From: Candidatus Kapaibacterium sp.
GTDB lineage: Bacteria; Bacteroidota; Ignavibacteria; Kapaibacteriales; UBA2268
Direction: 5' to 3'
Assembly (NCBI GenBank): GCA_026418625.1
Contig: JAOABA010000056.1
Span: forward strand, 1-64,000
Length of the DNA stretch: 64,000 nucleotides
Within the stretch, counting starts at the first letter, position 1, and every line of letters begins with the position of its first letter. The translations under genes were made by a program, and so were the position numbers. Below are positions 1 through 29,102 of the stretch, in pieces. The notes beneath the pieces are model-generated. The model was not told where the DNA came from, did not search any database, and saw nothing but the letters and a program-made list of their open reading frames with translations.

Positions 1-445
1 CTCTGCGCTCTCTGCGGATTCAATCCTTCCTCATTAGTAAATAAATTTTCTCTCTGCGTTCTCTGCGTGAAACCCCTGAATTTCTCGCAGAGTTCGCAAA
101 GACTGCCGCAGAGTTCGCAAAGATTTATTCAAACAAAGTAAATTTATTAATAATCATAAAATTTTTTCTAACCAAATTTTAAAGTTCTCTGCGGATTCAA
201 TCCTTCCTCATTAGTAAATAAATTTTCTCTCTGCGTTCTCTGCGTGAAACCCCTGAATTTCTCGCAGAGTTCGCAAAGACTGCCGCAAAGTTCGCAGAGA
301 TTTTTTTAAACAAATATAATTTATTAATTATCATAAAATTTTTTTGCTTTTCAATTTTAAAACTCTCTGCGTCCTCTGCGGATTCAATCATTCCTCATTA
401 GTAAATAAATTTTCCCTCTGCGTTCTCTGCGTGAAACCCCTTTAT
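1..445. repeat. CTCTGCG-type tandem repeat array, left part
   Basis: About two and a half units of roughly 177-187 bases. Each unit has a left arm with two CTCTGCG motifs, a short GAAACCCC loop, a right arm with CGCAGAG/CGCAAAG motifs that is largely the reverse complement of the left arm, and an AT-rich tail containing a TTTATTAAT..CATAAAATTTTT block. Units begin near 9, 186 and 373. The third unit stops after its left arm and loop, near 445, just before the nuclease gene. The imperfect inverted arms could fold into a long hairpin. The window starts inside the array, so its left edge is unknown. Confidence 0.9.
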
Positions 446-497
446 TTCCAATAAAGTAACTATATATTAACCTAAAAAATAAAAAGTAGTTAAAAAA

Positions 498-875
498 TTA
501 CAAGTTATTTACCAATCTAATGATGCCGTCTTTTAAAAATTCAACATTGAAATTAATCAACAGTCCTAATTTTTTATTTGATGGTCTCAAATAGGTTAAT
601 AACTGTTTTCTATGAACCGGTGCAATCGCTTCAATTGATTTAATCTCAATAATAACTTTATTTTCAACCAAAATATCTACCCTATAACCAGCTTCTAATT
701 TAATTGCTTCATAAACAAGGGGTATTGGAACCTGCGTTTGAACATATAGACCATGATTTTGTAATTCATATTCCAGAGCTGTTTCGTAAACATTTTCAAA
801 TAAACCGGGACCTAAGATTTTATGTATTTTTAAAGCACAATCAATAATAATCGCTGAAATTTCATTCTCTTGCAT
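498..875 (-). CDS. GxxExxY family protein (PD-(D/E)XK-like nuclease fold)
   Basis: A 125-residue protein with the family signature G24-x-x-E27-x-x-Y30 following a helical N-terminus. It also carries a PD-(D/E)XK-like core with D67 and E77-x-K79 in beta strands. Members of this family (TIGR04256, PDDEXK_3) are predicted nucleases of unknown role; catalysis here is inferred from the motif only. The gene is complete and starts with ATG. It has no operon partner and lies between two halves of a CTCTGCG repeat array. The third repeat unit is interrupted after its left arm at about 445, and repeat sequence resumes near 927. This setting suggests the gene travels with, or acts on, the repeats, which is inference. 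Confidence 0.85.
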   Translation of the reverse strand: MQENEISAIIIDCALKIHKILGPGLFENVYETALEYELQNHGLYVQTQVPIPLVYEAIKLEAGYRVDILVENKVIIEIKSIEAIAPVHRKQLLTYLRPSNKKLGLLINFNVEFLKDGIIRLVNNL

Positions 876-926
876 AAAAGTAAATTCTTGTTATTATTTA
901 AATTATATTTTTAAGAACTTATTATC

Positions 927-1271
927 TGTGTTCTTTGAGTAAACCTCCTGAATTTCTCGCAAAGTTCGCAAAGACCAAGGCAAAGCTCGCAAAGATTTTT
1001 TTAAACAAATTTAATTTATTAATTAACATAAAATTTTTTTGCTTTTCAATTTTAAAACTCTCTGCGTTCTCTGCGTGAACCCCCTGAATTTCTCGCAGAG
1101 TTCGCTAAGACTAACGCAAAGTTCGCAGAGATTTTTTCATACAAAGTAAATTTATTAATTATCATAAAATATTTATTCTAACCAAATTTTAAAGTTCTCT
1201 GCGCTCTCTGCATGAAACCCTTCATTTTCTCGCAGAGTTCGCCATGACTGCCGCAAAGCTCGCAAAGGATA
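927..1271. repeat. CTCTGCG-type tandem repeat array, right part
   Basis: The array resumes after the GxxExxY gene with a degenerate left arm (TCTGTGTTCTTTGAGTAAA) and a good right arm (CTCGCAAAGTTCGCAAAG). Two further units follow near 1057 and 1195. The AT-rich tail blocks match those of the left array. The last unit ends with CGCAAAGG near 1268. From 1272 to 1390 the sequence is AT-rich with no feature I can support. Confidence 0.9.
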
Positions 1272-1390
1272 TTTATAATCAATGAAATACCAAAGGACTA
1301 AATGAATAATCAGAAACAAATATAGTAAAATATTATTAAATTAGTTTTTTTTATCTTGGTTTTTTTAGTCAAAGAACAAACTAATTATTT

Positions 1391-3478
1391 ATGAAACAAT
1401 TAAAAGTTGCTATTCTCTGGCACCAGCACCAACCCTATTATAAGATGGGTGATGAATTTATTCTTCCTTGGGTCAGATTTCACGGAATAAAGGATTACCT
1501 TGATTTGGTTGAGATTCTATATGAATTCCCTGATATTCATCAAACATTTAACCTTGCTCCATCACTGATGGTTCAGATTGAAGAATATATCTCCGGCAAA
1601 ACAAAGGACAAAATTCAAAGATTAACCGAGAAACGCGTAACAGACCTTACCGAAGCTGACAAAAAGCAAATCCTAAAAAGCTTCTTCATTTGTAATTATG
1701 AAAATATGATTCTGCCTTACGAGCGATATAAACAGCTTTTCGATAAGGCTCAGAAAGGCGAGGATGCTTTTTCTTCATTTTCCGATCAAGATTGGCTTGA
1801 TTTGCAGGTTTGGTATAATTTGACTTGGTTCGGTCCTATTACCCGTGAAGAAAAGGGTATTAAAAGGCTTTTTCAAAAGGGAAAAAATTTTACTGAAGAA
1901 GAAAAGCAACTATTGATTGATTTTGATAACGAAACTCTTTCAGCCATTGTTCCAACTTTGAAAAAATTATATTCTCTGAATCAAATTGAAATTAGTGTTT
2001 CCCCTTTTTATCATCCTATTTTACCATTGCTTTGTGATTCTAAAACAGCACTTGAAGCAATGCCTGAGCTTGAACTAAACGGACTTGACTATAGACACCC
2101 TGAAAGTGCAAAATATCATATTGAATCAGCAATTGATTATTATCATTCTCTTTTTGGCTTCAAGCCACTGGGAATGTGGCCCTCCGAAGGCTCTCTATCG
2201 GATGAAGTTTTAAAAATAATGATAGATTCTGGTTTGCAATGGACCGGAACAGATGAAAAATTGCTCGAAAACTCTTTGAAAGATAAATATTTTCACTTAG
2301 AAAAATATTTTAAGCGAAGCTACAAAGCTGAAAATGGAAAAATCTCATTATTCTTCCGTGACCATTATCTTTCTGATGCTATCGGTTTTGTTTATTCAAG
2401 ATGGAATTCTTTTGATGCTGCTAATGATTTTATTAATAAGTTAAAGAAAATCAGAAGCGATATTATTAATCATTATGGCGAATCTGCTCTCGATTTTGCT
2501 GTTGTTCCAGTTATTCTTGACGGTGAAAATTGTTGGGAATATTATAAAAACAACGGATATGAATTCTTAACAGACCTTTATAAGCTTTTCACTCATTCAG
2601 CTGAGTTGAAAACCGTTAAATATTCTGAAATTTTAGGGCAGGAGGATTTTCTTGAACCAATAAATCATATCCAAGCTGGCTCTTGGATTAATGGCAATTT
2701 TTCGATATGGATTGGTCACAAAGATGATAGAGTTGCTTGGCAGGCTCTTTCTGAAGCACATAGTGCTGTTCTTACAGCAAAAGATGCACTTGAGGCTGAG
2801 CCTTTTGAGAAAGCTCTTACCGAAATACATATTGCCGAAGGCTCCGATTGGTTCTGGTGGTATGGCGATGAGCATACTGCTGAAAACAAAGCTGATTTTG
2901 ATGTTATGTTCAGATATCATTTATCGGAAGCTTACCAATATATTGGTGCTATTGTTCCAGACTACCTGTCATATCCATTAGGAAAAAATGGTCTAATCAA
3001 GCAGCTTGTTCATCCAAAAGGTTTAATCACTCCGAAAATTGACGGAAGGATTTATGAATCAGAGTGGGACAATGCCGGTTATTATGATGCAAAGGCTTCT
3101 ATGTCAGCTATGCACAAAGTGGGTGAGTTGATTCACAGAATCTGGTTTGGCTCTGATGAAGATAACATCTATTTTCGTTGCGATAAAACGAGGAAATTTC
3201 AACCCGATGATTATATCTTATTTAGCTTTAAATCACCAAAAGAATTCGATATTTATATCAGGAAAAATTCCTTTGAAATAATTTCTGGCGATGGTATTAA
3301 GATAAATCAATTATCTGTTGCAAAAGATGAAATTATAGAATTCAGTCTTTCAAAAAATACTTTTTTCGAAGGCTTTTTATCGGTTAATAAACCTATGATT
3401 TCAATAATTATTAAGACAAAAACTGCTGACGGTGAACTTTTTTATCCAAATCAAGGAACATTAGATTTAATTTTTTGA
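1391..3478 (+). CDS. Glycoside hydrolase family 57 (amylopullulanase/alpha-amylase-like)
   Basis: A 695-residue protein with the conserved regions of GH57 in order. Region 1 is H11-Q-H-Q-P near the N-terminus. Region 3 is G-M-W-P-S-E with E266 as the expected nucleophile. Region 4 is I-L-D-G-E-N with D377 as the expected acid/base. Region 5 is the tryptophan-rich block S-D-W-F-W-W-Y-G-D near residue 485. The last 150 residues look like a CBM9/DOMON-type beta-sandwich (ID-G-x-I-x-x-x-E-W-D). No signal peptide is visible, so a cytoplasmic alpha-glucan enzyme (glycogen or maltodextrin) is likely. The exact specificity (alpha-amylase, pullulanase or branching) cannot be read from sequence. A cyclophilin gene follows after 13 bases. 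Confidence 0.9.
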   Translation: MKQLKVAILWHQHQPYYKMGDEFILPWVRFHGIKDYLDLVEILYEFPDIHQTFNLAPSLMVQIEEYISGKTKDKIQRLTEKRVTDLTEADKKQILKSFFICNYENMILPYERYKQLFDKAQKGEDAFSSFSDQDWLDLQVWYNLTWFGPITREEKGIKRLFQKGKNFTEEEKQLLIDFDNETLSAIVPTLKKLYSLNQIEISVSPFYHPILPLLCDSKTALEAMPELELNGLDYRHPESAKYHIESAIDYYHSLFGFKPLGMWPSEGSLSDEVLKIMIDSGLQWTGTDEKLLENSLKDKYFHLEKYFKRSYKAENGKISLFFRDHYLSDAIGFVYSRWNSFDAANDFINKLKKIRSDIINHYGESALDFAVVPVILDGENCWEYYKNNGYEFLTDLYKLFTHSAELKTVKYSEILGQEDFLEPINHIQAGSWINGNFSIWIGHKDDRVAWQALSEAHSAVLTAKDALEAEPFEKALTEIHIAEGSDWFWWYGDEHTAENKADFDVMFRYHLSEAYQYIGAIVPDYLSYPLGKNGLIKQLVHPKGLITPKIDGRIYESEWDNAGYYDAKASMSAMHKVGELIHRIWFGSDEDNIYFRCDKTRKFQPDDYILFSFKSPKEFDIYIRKNSFEIISGDGIKINQLSVAKDEIIEFSLSKNTFFEGFLSVNKPMISIIIKTKTADGELFYPNQGTLDLIF

Positions 3479-13472: not shown

Positions 13473-13535
13473 CCGAATTCTTTGCTATCACCATCAGTGA
13501 AATCAATCGTGTTTCCACGTCATTGCTATGAAGTC

Positions 13536-13640
13536 AGGAAACTTGTTCTTCCCTGTCATTCCTGTGCAGACAGGAATCTCCTTCTCCCTTGTCATTCCTT
13601 GCTTGTCAAGGAATCTCTTTATTACTCTAAGACTCCTGCC
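13536..13640. repeat. GTCATTCCTG-type hairpin repeats (solo copies)
   Basis: Two hairpin units, ATTCCTGtgcagaCAGGAAT and ATTCCTTgcttgtCAAGGAAT, each preceded by a tract like CCCTGTC or CCCTTGTC and followed by CTC. They are in the opposite orientation to the related repeats around the GIY-YIG gene at 28.9-29.5 kb. A degenerate GACTCCTGCCT (13631-13641) may be the remains of the second hairpin type seen there. Confidence 0.8.
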
Positions 13641-13869: not shown

Positions 13870-13930
13870 ACTATTCAATTTTAACAAAGCTACCTATCTA
13901 AGCACCAAGTAAGTTGAATATCTTGATTTC

Positions 13931-13976
13931 AGCGCCCTTTGCGTGAAACCCTTTTTCTCGCAGAGCCCGCAAAGGA
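13931..13976. repeat. Relic of the CTCTGCG repeat family
   Basis: The stretch contains CCTTTGCGTGAAACCC followed by TTCTCGCAGAGCCCGCAAAGG. It matches the arm-loop-arm core of the array at 1-1271 but is only one unit and lacks the AT-rich tail. It shows that the family is dispersed rather than confined to the nuclease locus. Confidence 0.8.
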
Positions 13977-28870: not shown

Positions 28871-29085
28871 CACTCCTGCAGATGTAGGAAACTCGACTCA
28901 AACCGTTACTCCTGCGGATACAGGAGTCTAAAAAAAGAATAGAGATTCCTGTTTGCACAGGAATGACAGGGAAATTGAGGGTGTCACTCCTGCGGATGCA
29001 GGAGTCTAAAAAAAAGAATAGAGATTCCTGTCTGCACTGGAATGGCAGGGGTTTTGATGATGTCACTCCTGCGGATGCAGGAGTC
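28871..29085. repeat. Tandem hairpin repeats (ACTCCTGC / ATTCCTG types) upstream of GIY-YIG gene
   Basis: Two hairpins alternate. Type B is GTCACTCCTGCggatGCAGGAGTC at 28905-28928, 28983-29006 and 29062-29085, with a degenerate copy at 28871-28894. Type A is AGATTCCTGtttgcaCAGGAATGACAGGG at 28941-28971 and 29020-29051. The period is 78-79 bases, and B and A are joined by a 12-13 base A-rich linker. After the last B copy the GIY-YIG gene begins in place of the linker. Confidence 0.9.
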
Positions 29086-29102
29086 TCAAGGGATTAGCTA
29101 CT

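Follow-up and report, generated by a model that had tools for sequence, protein, structure and literature searches.

The window analyzed here, a 64,000-nucleotide stretch from Candidatus Kapaibacterium sp., begins at base 1 of contig C33 and carries an array of hairpin repeats over its positions 1–1270, together with a short gene of the GxxExxY family and, beyond the array, a longer flanking gene (Table 1). A complete unit of the array consists of a left arm (CTCTGCGnnCTCTGCG), a loop (TGAAACCCCTGAATTTCT), a right arm (CGCAGAGnnCGCAAAG), a second CGCARAGnnCGCARAG and an AT-rich spacer. The regular CTCTGCG..CGCAGAG units described in the initial annotation were recovered: a search for CTCTGCGNNCTCTGCG with up to three mismatches gave 20 matches in the window against 0.6 expected, a number reached in none of 100 shuffles, and 17 of the 20 fell within 1–1267. 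The array extends beyond the window, because the end of contig C52, which itself lies in the same array, shares an exact 110-bp overlap with the start of C33. Elsewhere in the window, far from the gene, another degenerate hairpin copy of the CTCTGCG repeat was found at 13928–13974. Tandem repeats of another palindromic type, at 28908–29086 and 13519–13599 (ACTCCTGCGGATGCAGGAGTC; GTCATTCC...), are unrelated to the CTCTGCG units.

Table 1. Features of the hairpin array and its boundary in the window
Feature	Position	Strand	Basis or remark
Left-arm pair CTCTGCGCTCTCTGCG	1..16	.	Contig edge; array runs on into contig C52
Intact hairpin unit with left arm, loop and double right arm	51..122	.	DNA fold z -4.1
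Intact hairpin unit	228..299	.	DNA fold z -3.8
Additional left-arm pair CTCTGCGTCCTCTGCG	365..380	.	Motif search
Half unit: left arm and loop, without right arm	416..447	.	Motif search
GxxExxY / PDDEXK_3 nuclease gene (predicted), 125 aa, intact	498..875	-	Profile matches, invariant residues, AF2 model
Decayed TIR arm (left end) on the upstream side of the gene; TTTACTCAAAGAACACAGA in gene orientation	925..945	-	
Right arm of the unit beyond the gene	958..994	.	Motif search
Intact hairpin unit	1059..1130	.	DNA fold z -3.7
Hairpin unit, partly degenerate	1196..1267	.	DNA fold z -1.6
Flanking gene and leader, array boundary	1300..3478	+	85% protein identity to G303 counterpart

The protein encoded within the array matched PF13366 (138.7 bits; cut-off, 22) and TIGR04256 (142 bits; cut-off, 35) over its full length, and it keeps all of the residues that are invariant across 23 family sequences (E27, Y30, D67, E77-x-K79, Q91 and Y95). 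Its AF2 model (pLDDT 94) adopted a PD-(D/E)XK fold; no sequence relative was present in the PDB up to an E value of 5. Among solved folds, SSO0001, a Cas4-group protein, was closest (Z 9.3), followed by members of other groups (Z 8.6 and 8.2), and several restriction enzymes were among the nearest structures. Hjc resolvases scored Z 6–7, within the common noise band. The best Foldseek E value was 0.008, and for subfamily placement the fold scores lie in or near that band. By family and by modelled fold, the window gene is thus a predicted PD-(D/E)XK nuclease gene. Cas4/RecB-like and Holliday-junction-resolvase nucleases are its fold neighbours and have in common with it the order E..D..ExK..QxxxY of the invariant residues; unlike them, the GxxExxY protein stands alone.

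Reading the array unit by unit in the orientation of the gene, we found the decayed left end (945–925), the gene, a right end whose iterons are gone and of which GAAAT remains, and then the next unit, whose left end is the half unit at 416–447. The gene takes the place of the right arm and AT-rich spacer expected after this half unit. The gene had been proposed to sit at the loop of a hairpin; its place within the hairpin array stands, but it occupies the spacer slot between hairpins and not a loop. The ends of the window copy itself are decayed, and both units that touch the gene no longer fold as DNA (923–995, z +1.5; 416–487, z −1.6).

BLAST placed 56 copies of the unit at roughly 30 sites of the assembly (3.3 Mb, 58 contigs), which has only one GxxExxY gene; the pattern CGCARAGN{1,3}CGCARAG had 127 matches against this one gene. 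The other repeat sites that we inspected in the window genome were gene-less hairpins, either single or arrayed, and no GxxExxY remnants were seen by eye in them. The true number of copies is probably higher than the assembly shows, since further contig ends, those of C24 (L064, end) and C14 (L065, start), also break within the hairpin repeat. A second dispersed motif, approximately GTCATTCTGAACGAAGTGAAGAATCC, lies beside many hairpin copies of this genome (L066, L068, L072, L073 and L076). A RAYT as mobiliser was considered and found unsupported, the sole Y1_Tnp of the genome having an internal stop and lying at C14:42262, away from the array.

The other genome of the genus, the sister G303 (94% complete), had neither a copy of the repeat nor a GxxExxY gene. 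In G303, the counterpart of the flanking gene, which we take to be GH57-like, has an aldo-keto reductase gene as its neighbour, and no array intervenes. In the window species, these two genes are separated by about 3 kb of inserted DNA that includes the hairpin array. This insertion also holds a MazF-like gene and a further ORF (L062, 4336–4788 and 5102–6085; contig C52), both of which are missing from the corresponding site in G303.

We collected 80 relatives with their flanks from Bacteroidota, Cyanobacteria, Acidobacteriota, Planctomycetota and other groups; these loci are the best matches to the window's own alignment, and the sample leans to the window subfamily. Repeat pairs occurred at 5.93 per kb within 50 bp of the gene and at 0.008 per kb at a distance of 3–6 kb, usually with CGCAAAG upstream of the gene and CTTTGCG downstream; the genes are thus not mostly away from such repeats. 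When only noncoding DNA was counted, the densities were 4.35 pairs per kb near the gene and 0.109 far from it, a difference of roughly 40-fold. A pair was present in the adjacent noncoding DNA at 35 of 80 GxxExxY loci but in only 6 of 285 other intergenic gaps (Fisher p 1e-20). In a pattern-free test, which scored the inverted-repeat match between the 200 bp before and the 200 bp after a gene, TIRs were detected at 40/74 GxxExxY genes versus 9/441 neighbour genes (OR 56, p 2e-30), and the median score was 35.5 compared with 17 in far controls. In a separate sample from the class, 23 of 30 genes and none of 27 far controls scored at least 30. Some GxxExxY loci had no detectable TIR (21/74 scored below 30). 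Flanking by repeats beyond chance, as anticipated from the window, therefore holds in both comparisons, and the GxxExxY gene is normally bracketed by matching inverted repeats. An ordinary explanation, by which gene and repeats meet by chance or share a preference for intergenic, recombination-prone islands, could draw on the position of the window array inside an insertion that also holds a MazF-like gene; it is hardly credible against the roughly 40-fold excess over other noncoding DNA at the same loci and against arms that match each other across the gene.

The outer ends could be placed in 61 loci, giving a median element length of 498 bp including TIRs. Each TIR consists of two to four iterons of about 9–10 bp, CTYTGYG-like in sequence and spaced about one DNA turn apart; the arms showed a periodicity of 9–10 bp and a further peak at 21 bp, corresponding to about one and two duplex turns. 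The iteron sequence varies by locus, while within a locus the arms match each other, perfectly so at L112 (52/52). Loci with more similar proteins also had more similar arms (rho 0.23, higher than in any of 1000 permutations). The initial annotation had proposed a search of genomes for the repeat core. Repeats do flank the genes in other genomes, but a single universal core is ruled out by locus variants such as CTTTGCG, CTCTGTG, CATTGCG, CACTGCG, TTTGGCG and ATCTGTG: each locus has a variant of its own. The elements end in GGTTAA, GTGAAA, GTGAG and similar sequences, which are not GTAG/CGTC-headed REPs. Outside the TIR ends of the 61 elements, which are fuzzy, no consistent target-site duplication was seen by eye.

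Gene and repeat were also distributed together across genomes. The GxxExxY gene was present in 197 of 294 genomes of the class, and CGCARAGN{1,3}CGCARAG had a median of 5 matches per genome with the gene versus 0 without it (p 5e-17, 294 genomes), counts that in part represent the ends of the GxxExxY genes themselves. The reversed pattern, used as a control, had almost no matches. When gene presence was permuted within families, none of 5000 permutations reached the observed difference. Thirteen genomes without a GxxExxY gene had at least four repeats. The repeat is therefore not equally common in genomes that lack the gene, and the sister G303 lacks both. Spread by plasmids or phages left little sign: relatives were found in 8 of 72,556 plasmid records and on one viral contig.

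We compared orthologous sites in related genomes. In a genus represented by 13 genomes, one intergenic site carried the gene in G016, G167, G175 and G110, and inverted ends were seen directly at the filled site in the first three. Eight relatives had a short intergenic region without the gene at this site, and G220 retains a single arm; G167 carries tandem gene-less copies beside its gene-bearing copy. At a second orthologous site, G257 has the gene, whereas G299 has no gene and keeps both TIRs. At a third, G078 holds a derivative whose opening 10 codons (MTENEIGEVV) continue, without loss of frame, into the closing codons of the gene (NYGIRRVANN); in G124, a comparable internal-deletion derivative lies next to a full copy. 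Presence and absence alone do not distinguish gain from loss. Gene-less copies do arise by internal deletion of gene-bearing copies, because derivatives of the G078 and G124 type retain the termini of the gene. The comparison of sites suggested at the outset thus yielded gene-bearing, gene-less and internally deleted versions, but not clean excision as such. In G165, six GxxExxY paralogues, each with its own TIR at an unrelated site, are only 34–68% identical; recent copying of the gene within this genome was not seen. As a separate observation, G149 and G218 have a gene-less repeat at an orthologous site upstream of an apparent prpD/MmgE-type gene (L244 and L246), and in a Neomarinimicrobiota genome a GxxExxY gene precedes a similar prpD/MmgE-like gene (L145).

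The site comparisons also bear on a homing-type reading, by which a free-standing PD-(D/E)XK homing endonuclease cuts the empty allele, recombination copies the gene and its ends there, and the TIRs are recognition or protection sites. The PD-(D/E)XK fold is also found in homing endonucleases, presence and absence at conserved orthologous sites would be expected, and so would the lack of a consistent target-site duplication among the 61 elements with their fuzzy ends. We regard this reading as improbable: it leaves unexplained the long iteron TIRs, the roughly 30 dispersed gene-less sites in a single genome, and the many paralogues with their own TIRs at unrelated sites.

Six of the nine TIR-bearing neighbour genes encode four-helix-bundle proteins of PF05635. 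Genes of this family (23S_rRNA_IVP; L162–L191) are enclosed by inverted repeats built from short iterons of other sequence, for example CTAACCACTAATCACT and CTCAATACCCAATAC; more cases were noted at L090 (4445–4774), L110 (4251–4622), L113 (2004–2378), L141 (4255–4632), L150 (2662–3009) and L151 (7319–7693), and several of these elements lie less than 2 kb from a GxxExxY element. PF05635 genes in iteron TIRs are a parallel element family. We had considered that they might share the CTYTGCG repeat with GxxExxY; this proved wrong, as the CTYTGCG pair was found at none of 30 PF05635 loci. Because non-nuclease genes share the architecture, mobilisation need not be the work of the encoded protein, and because these genes occupy elements of the same type, shared host machinery could act on the ends.

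Carried further, this gives a model in which the repeats are spread, or kept palindromic, by other machinery, with host replication template switching, SbcCD/RecA repair or another transposase as candidates, and the GxxExxY gene is cargo. Two unrelated families, PD-(D/E)XK and PF05635, in one TIR architecture would be natural under such a model, and arms that are near-identical within a locus and different between loci are what template switching also gives. We nevertheless consider GxxExxY as cargo unlikely. The two families use different iterons, with no CTYTGCG pair at the 30 PF05635 loci, so the arms track the gene; arm similarity follows GxxExxY protein identity; and the only RAYT-type Y1_Tnp of the window genome is broken and lies elsewhere.

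The shared architecture is also compatible with an element acting at the RNA level, whose arms would serve in the transcript as RNase III-like processing stems, terminators or autoregulatory binding sites. The 23S rRNA intervening sequences, which carry a four-helix-bundle gene, are a precedent. Against such a role, to which we assign a low probability, the GxxExxY protein is modelled as a DNA nuclease, the 9–10/21-bp spacing fits helical phasing of duplex DNA, and the gene-less copies are dispersed over many intergenic sites in the window genome and in others.

The initial annotation had taken the gene and its palindromic repeats for one unit with gene-less derivatives, and the association with TIRs, their architecture, the co-distribution, the site polymorphism and the deletion derivatives bear this out. 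Because the gene is bracketed by repeats and gene-less copies litter the genomes that carry it, these features suggest a tiny selfish element with the nuclease as its only gene. Our preferred reading, to which we give a probability of about 0.6, is that GxxExxY is the sole gene of an iteron-TIR element of about 0.5 kb, that the nuclease cuts the arms, and that the gene-less copies are non-autonomous derivatives. Arguing by analogy, the GxxExxY protein would recognise or bind the arms, cut them, and mobilise or maintain the element. The iteron arms may be recognised extruded as a hairpin or cruciform, or bound as duplex; the nuclease would cut at the recognised arms, and repair after cutting would spread, duplicate or maintain the ends. 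Gene-less copies would be served in trans, and in the window genome the surrounding array and the roughly 30 other sites would represent such gene-less, non-autonomous ends. More tentatively, GxxExxY elements may be a widespread class of one-gene selfish or domesticated elements, moved or maintained by a stand-alone PD-(D/E)XK nuclease that acts on their iteron-built palindromic ends, with the PF05635 elements as a second class, the design having arisen or been adopted twice.

By analogy, the REPIN-RAYT system is the closest counterpart of the GxxExxY elements. RAYT genes have been described as always flanked by two inverted REPs (PMC2817692), and several RAYTs in a genome as distinct single-copy genes (PMC3116915). 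Both systems have one gene between two inverted palindromic ends, many dispersed and clustered gene-less palindromic copies, several distinct paralogues within a genome, each paired with a repeat variant of its own, and orthologous genes whose ends drift yet stay palindromic. They differ in the enzyme, a predicted PD-(D/E)XK nuclease versus the Y1 HUH tyrosine transposase of RAYT (Pfam01797), and in the ends, iteron arms versus the GTAG-headed REP. Like MITEs, the gene-less derivatives have undergone internal deletion with the TIRs kept (G078, G299); unlike the MITEs of insertion sequences, GxxExxY elements have no DDE transposase and, among the 61 elements with their fuzzy ends, no target-site duplication was seen. 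The 23S rRNA intervening sequence with its S23/IVP gene likewise places a small gene between inverted repeats over about 0.4–0.5 kb, and the 428-nt sequence of Coxiella, with its S23 ORF, has been described as a selfish element (PMC4990558). The GxxExxY elements differ from it in protein family, in iterons, and in lying between genes and not in rRNA. Within the literature covered by our search, which most subscription journals lay outside, no paper was seen to link GxxExxY to inverted repeats, TIRs or derivatives. There is a fair chance that GxxExxY elements form a class of their own.

GxxExxY genes occur in two thirds of the sampled genomes of the class (197/294) and in several other phyla, and we know of no function for their products. 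A gene that travels with its own repeats and with gene-less derivatives gives the family a directly testable one, that of acting on these ends. The element accounts for a large set of intergenic repeats of the CTTTGCG/CTCTGCG type and would add a nuclease-based counterpart to RAYT-REPIN. Through their matching architecture, the four-helix-bundle genes, a second orphan family, are tied to the same question.
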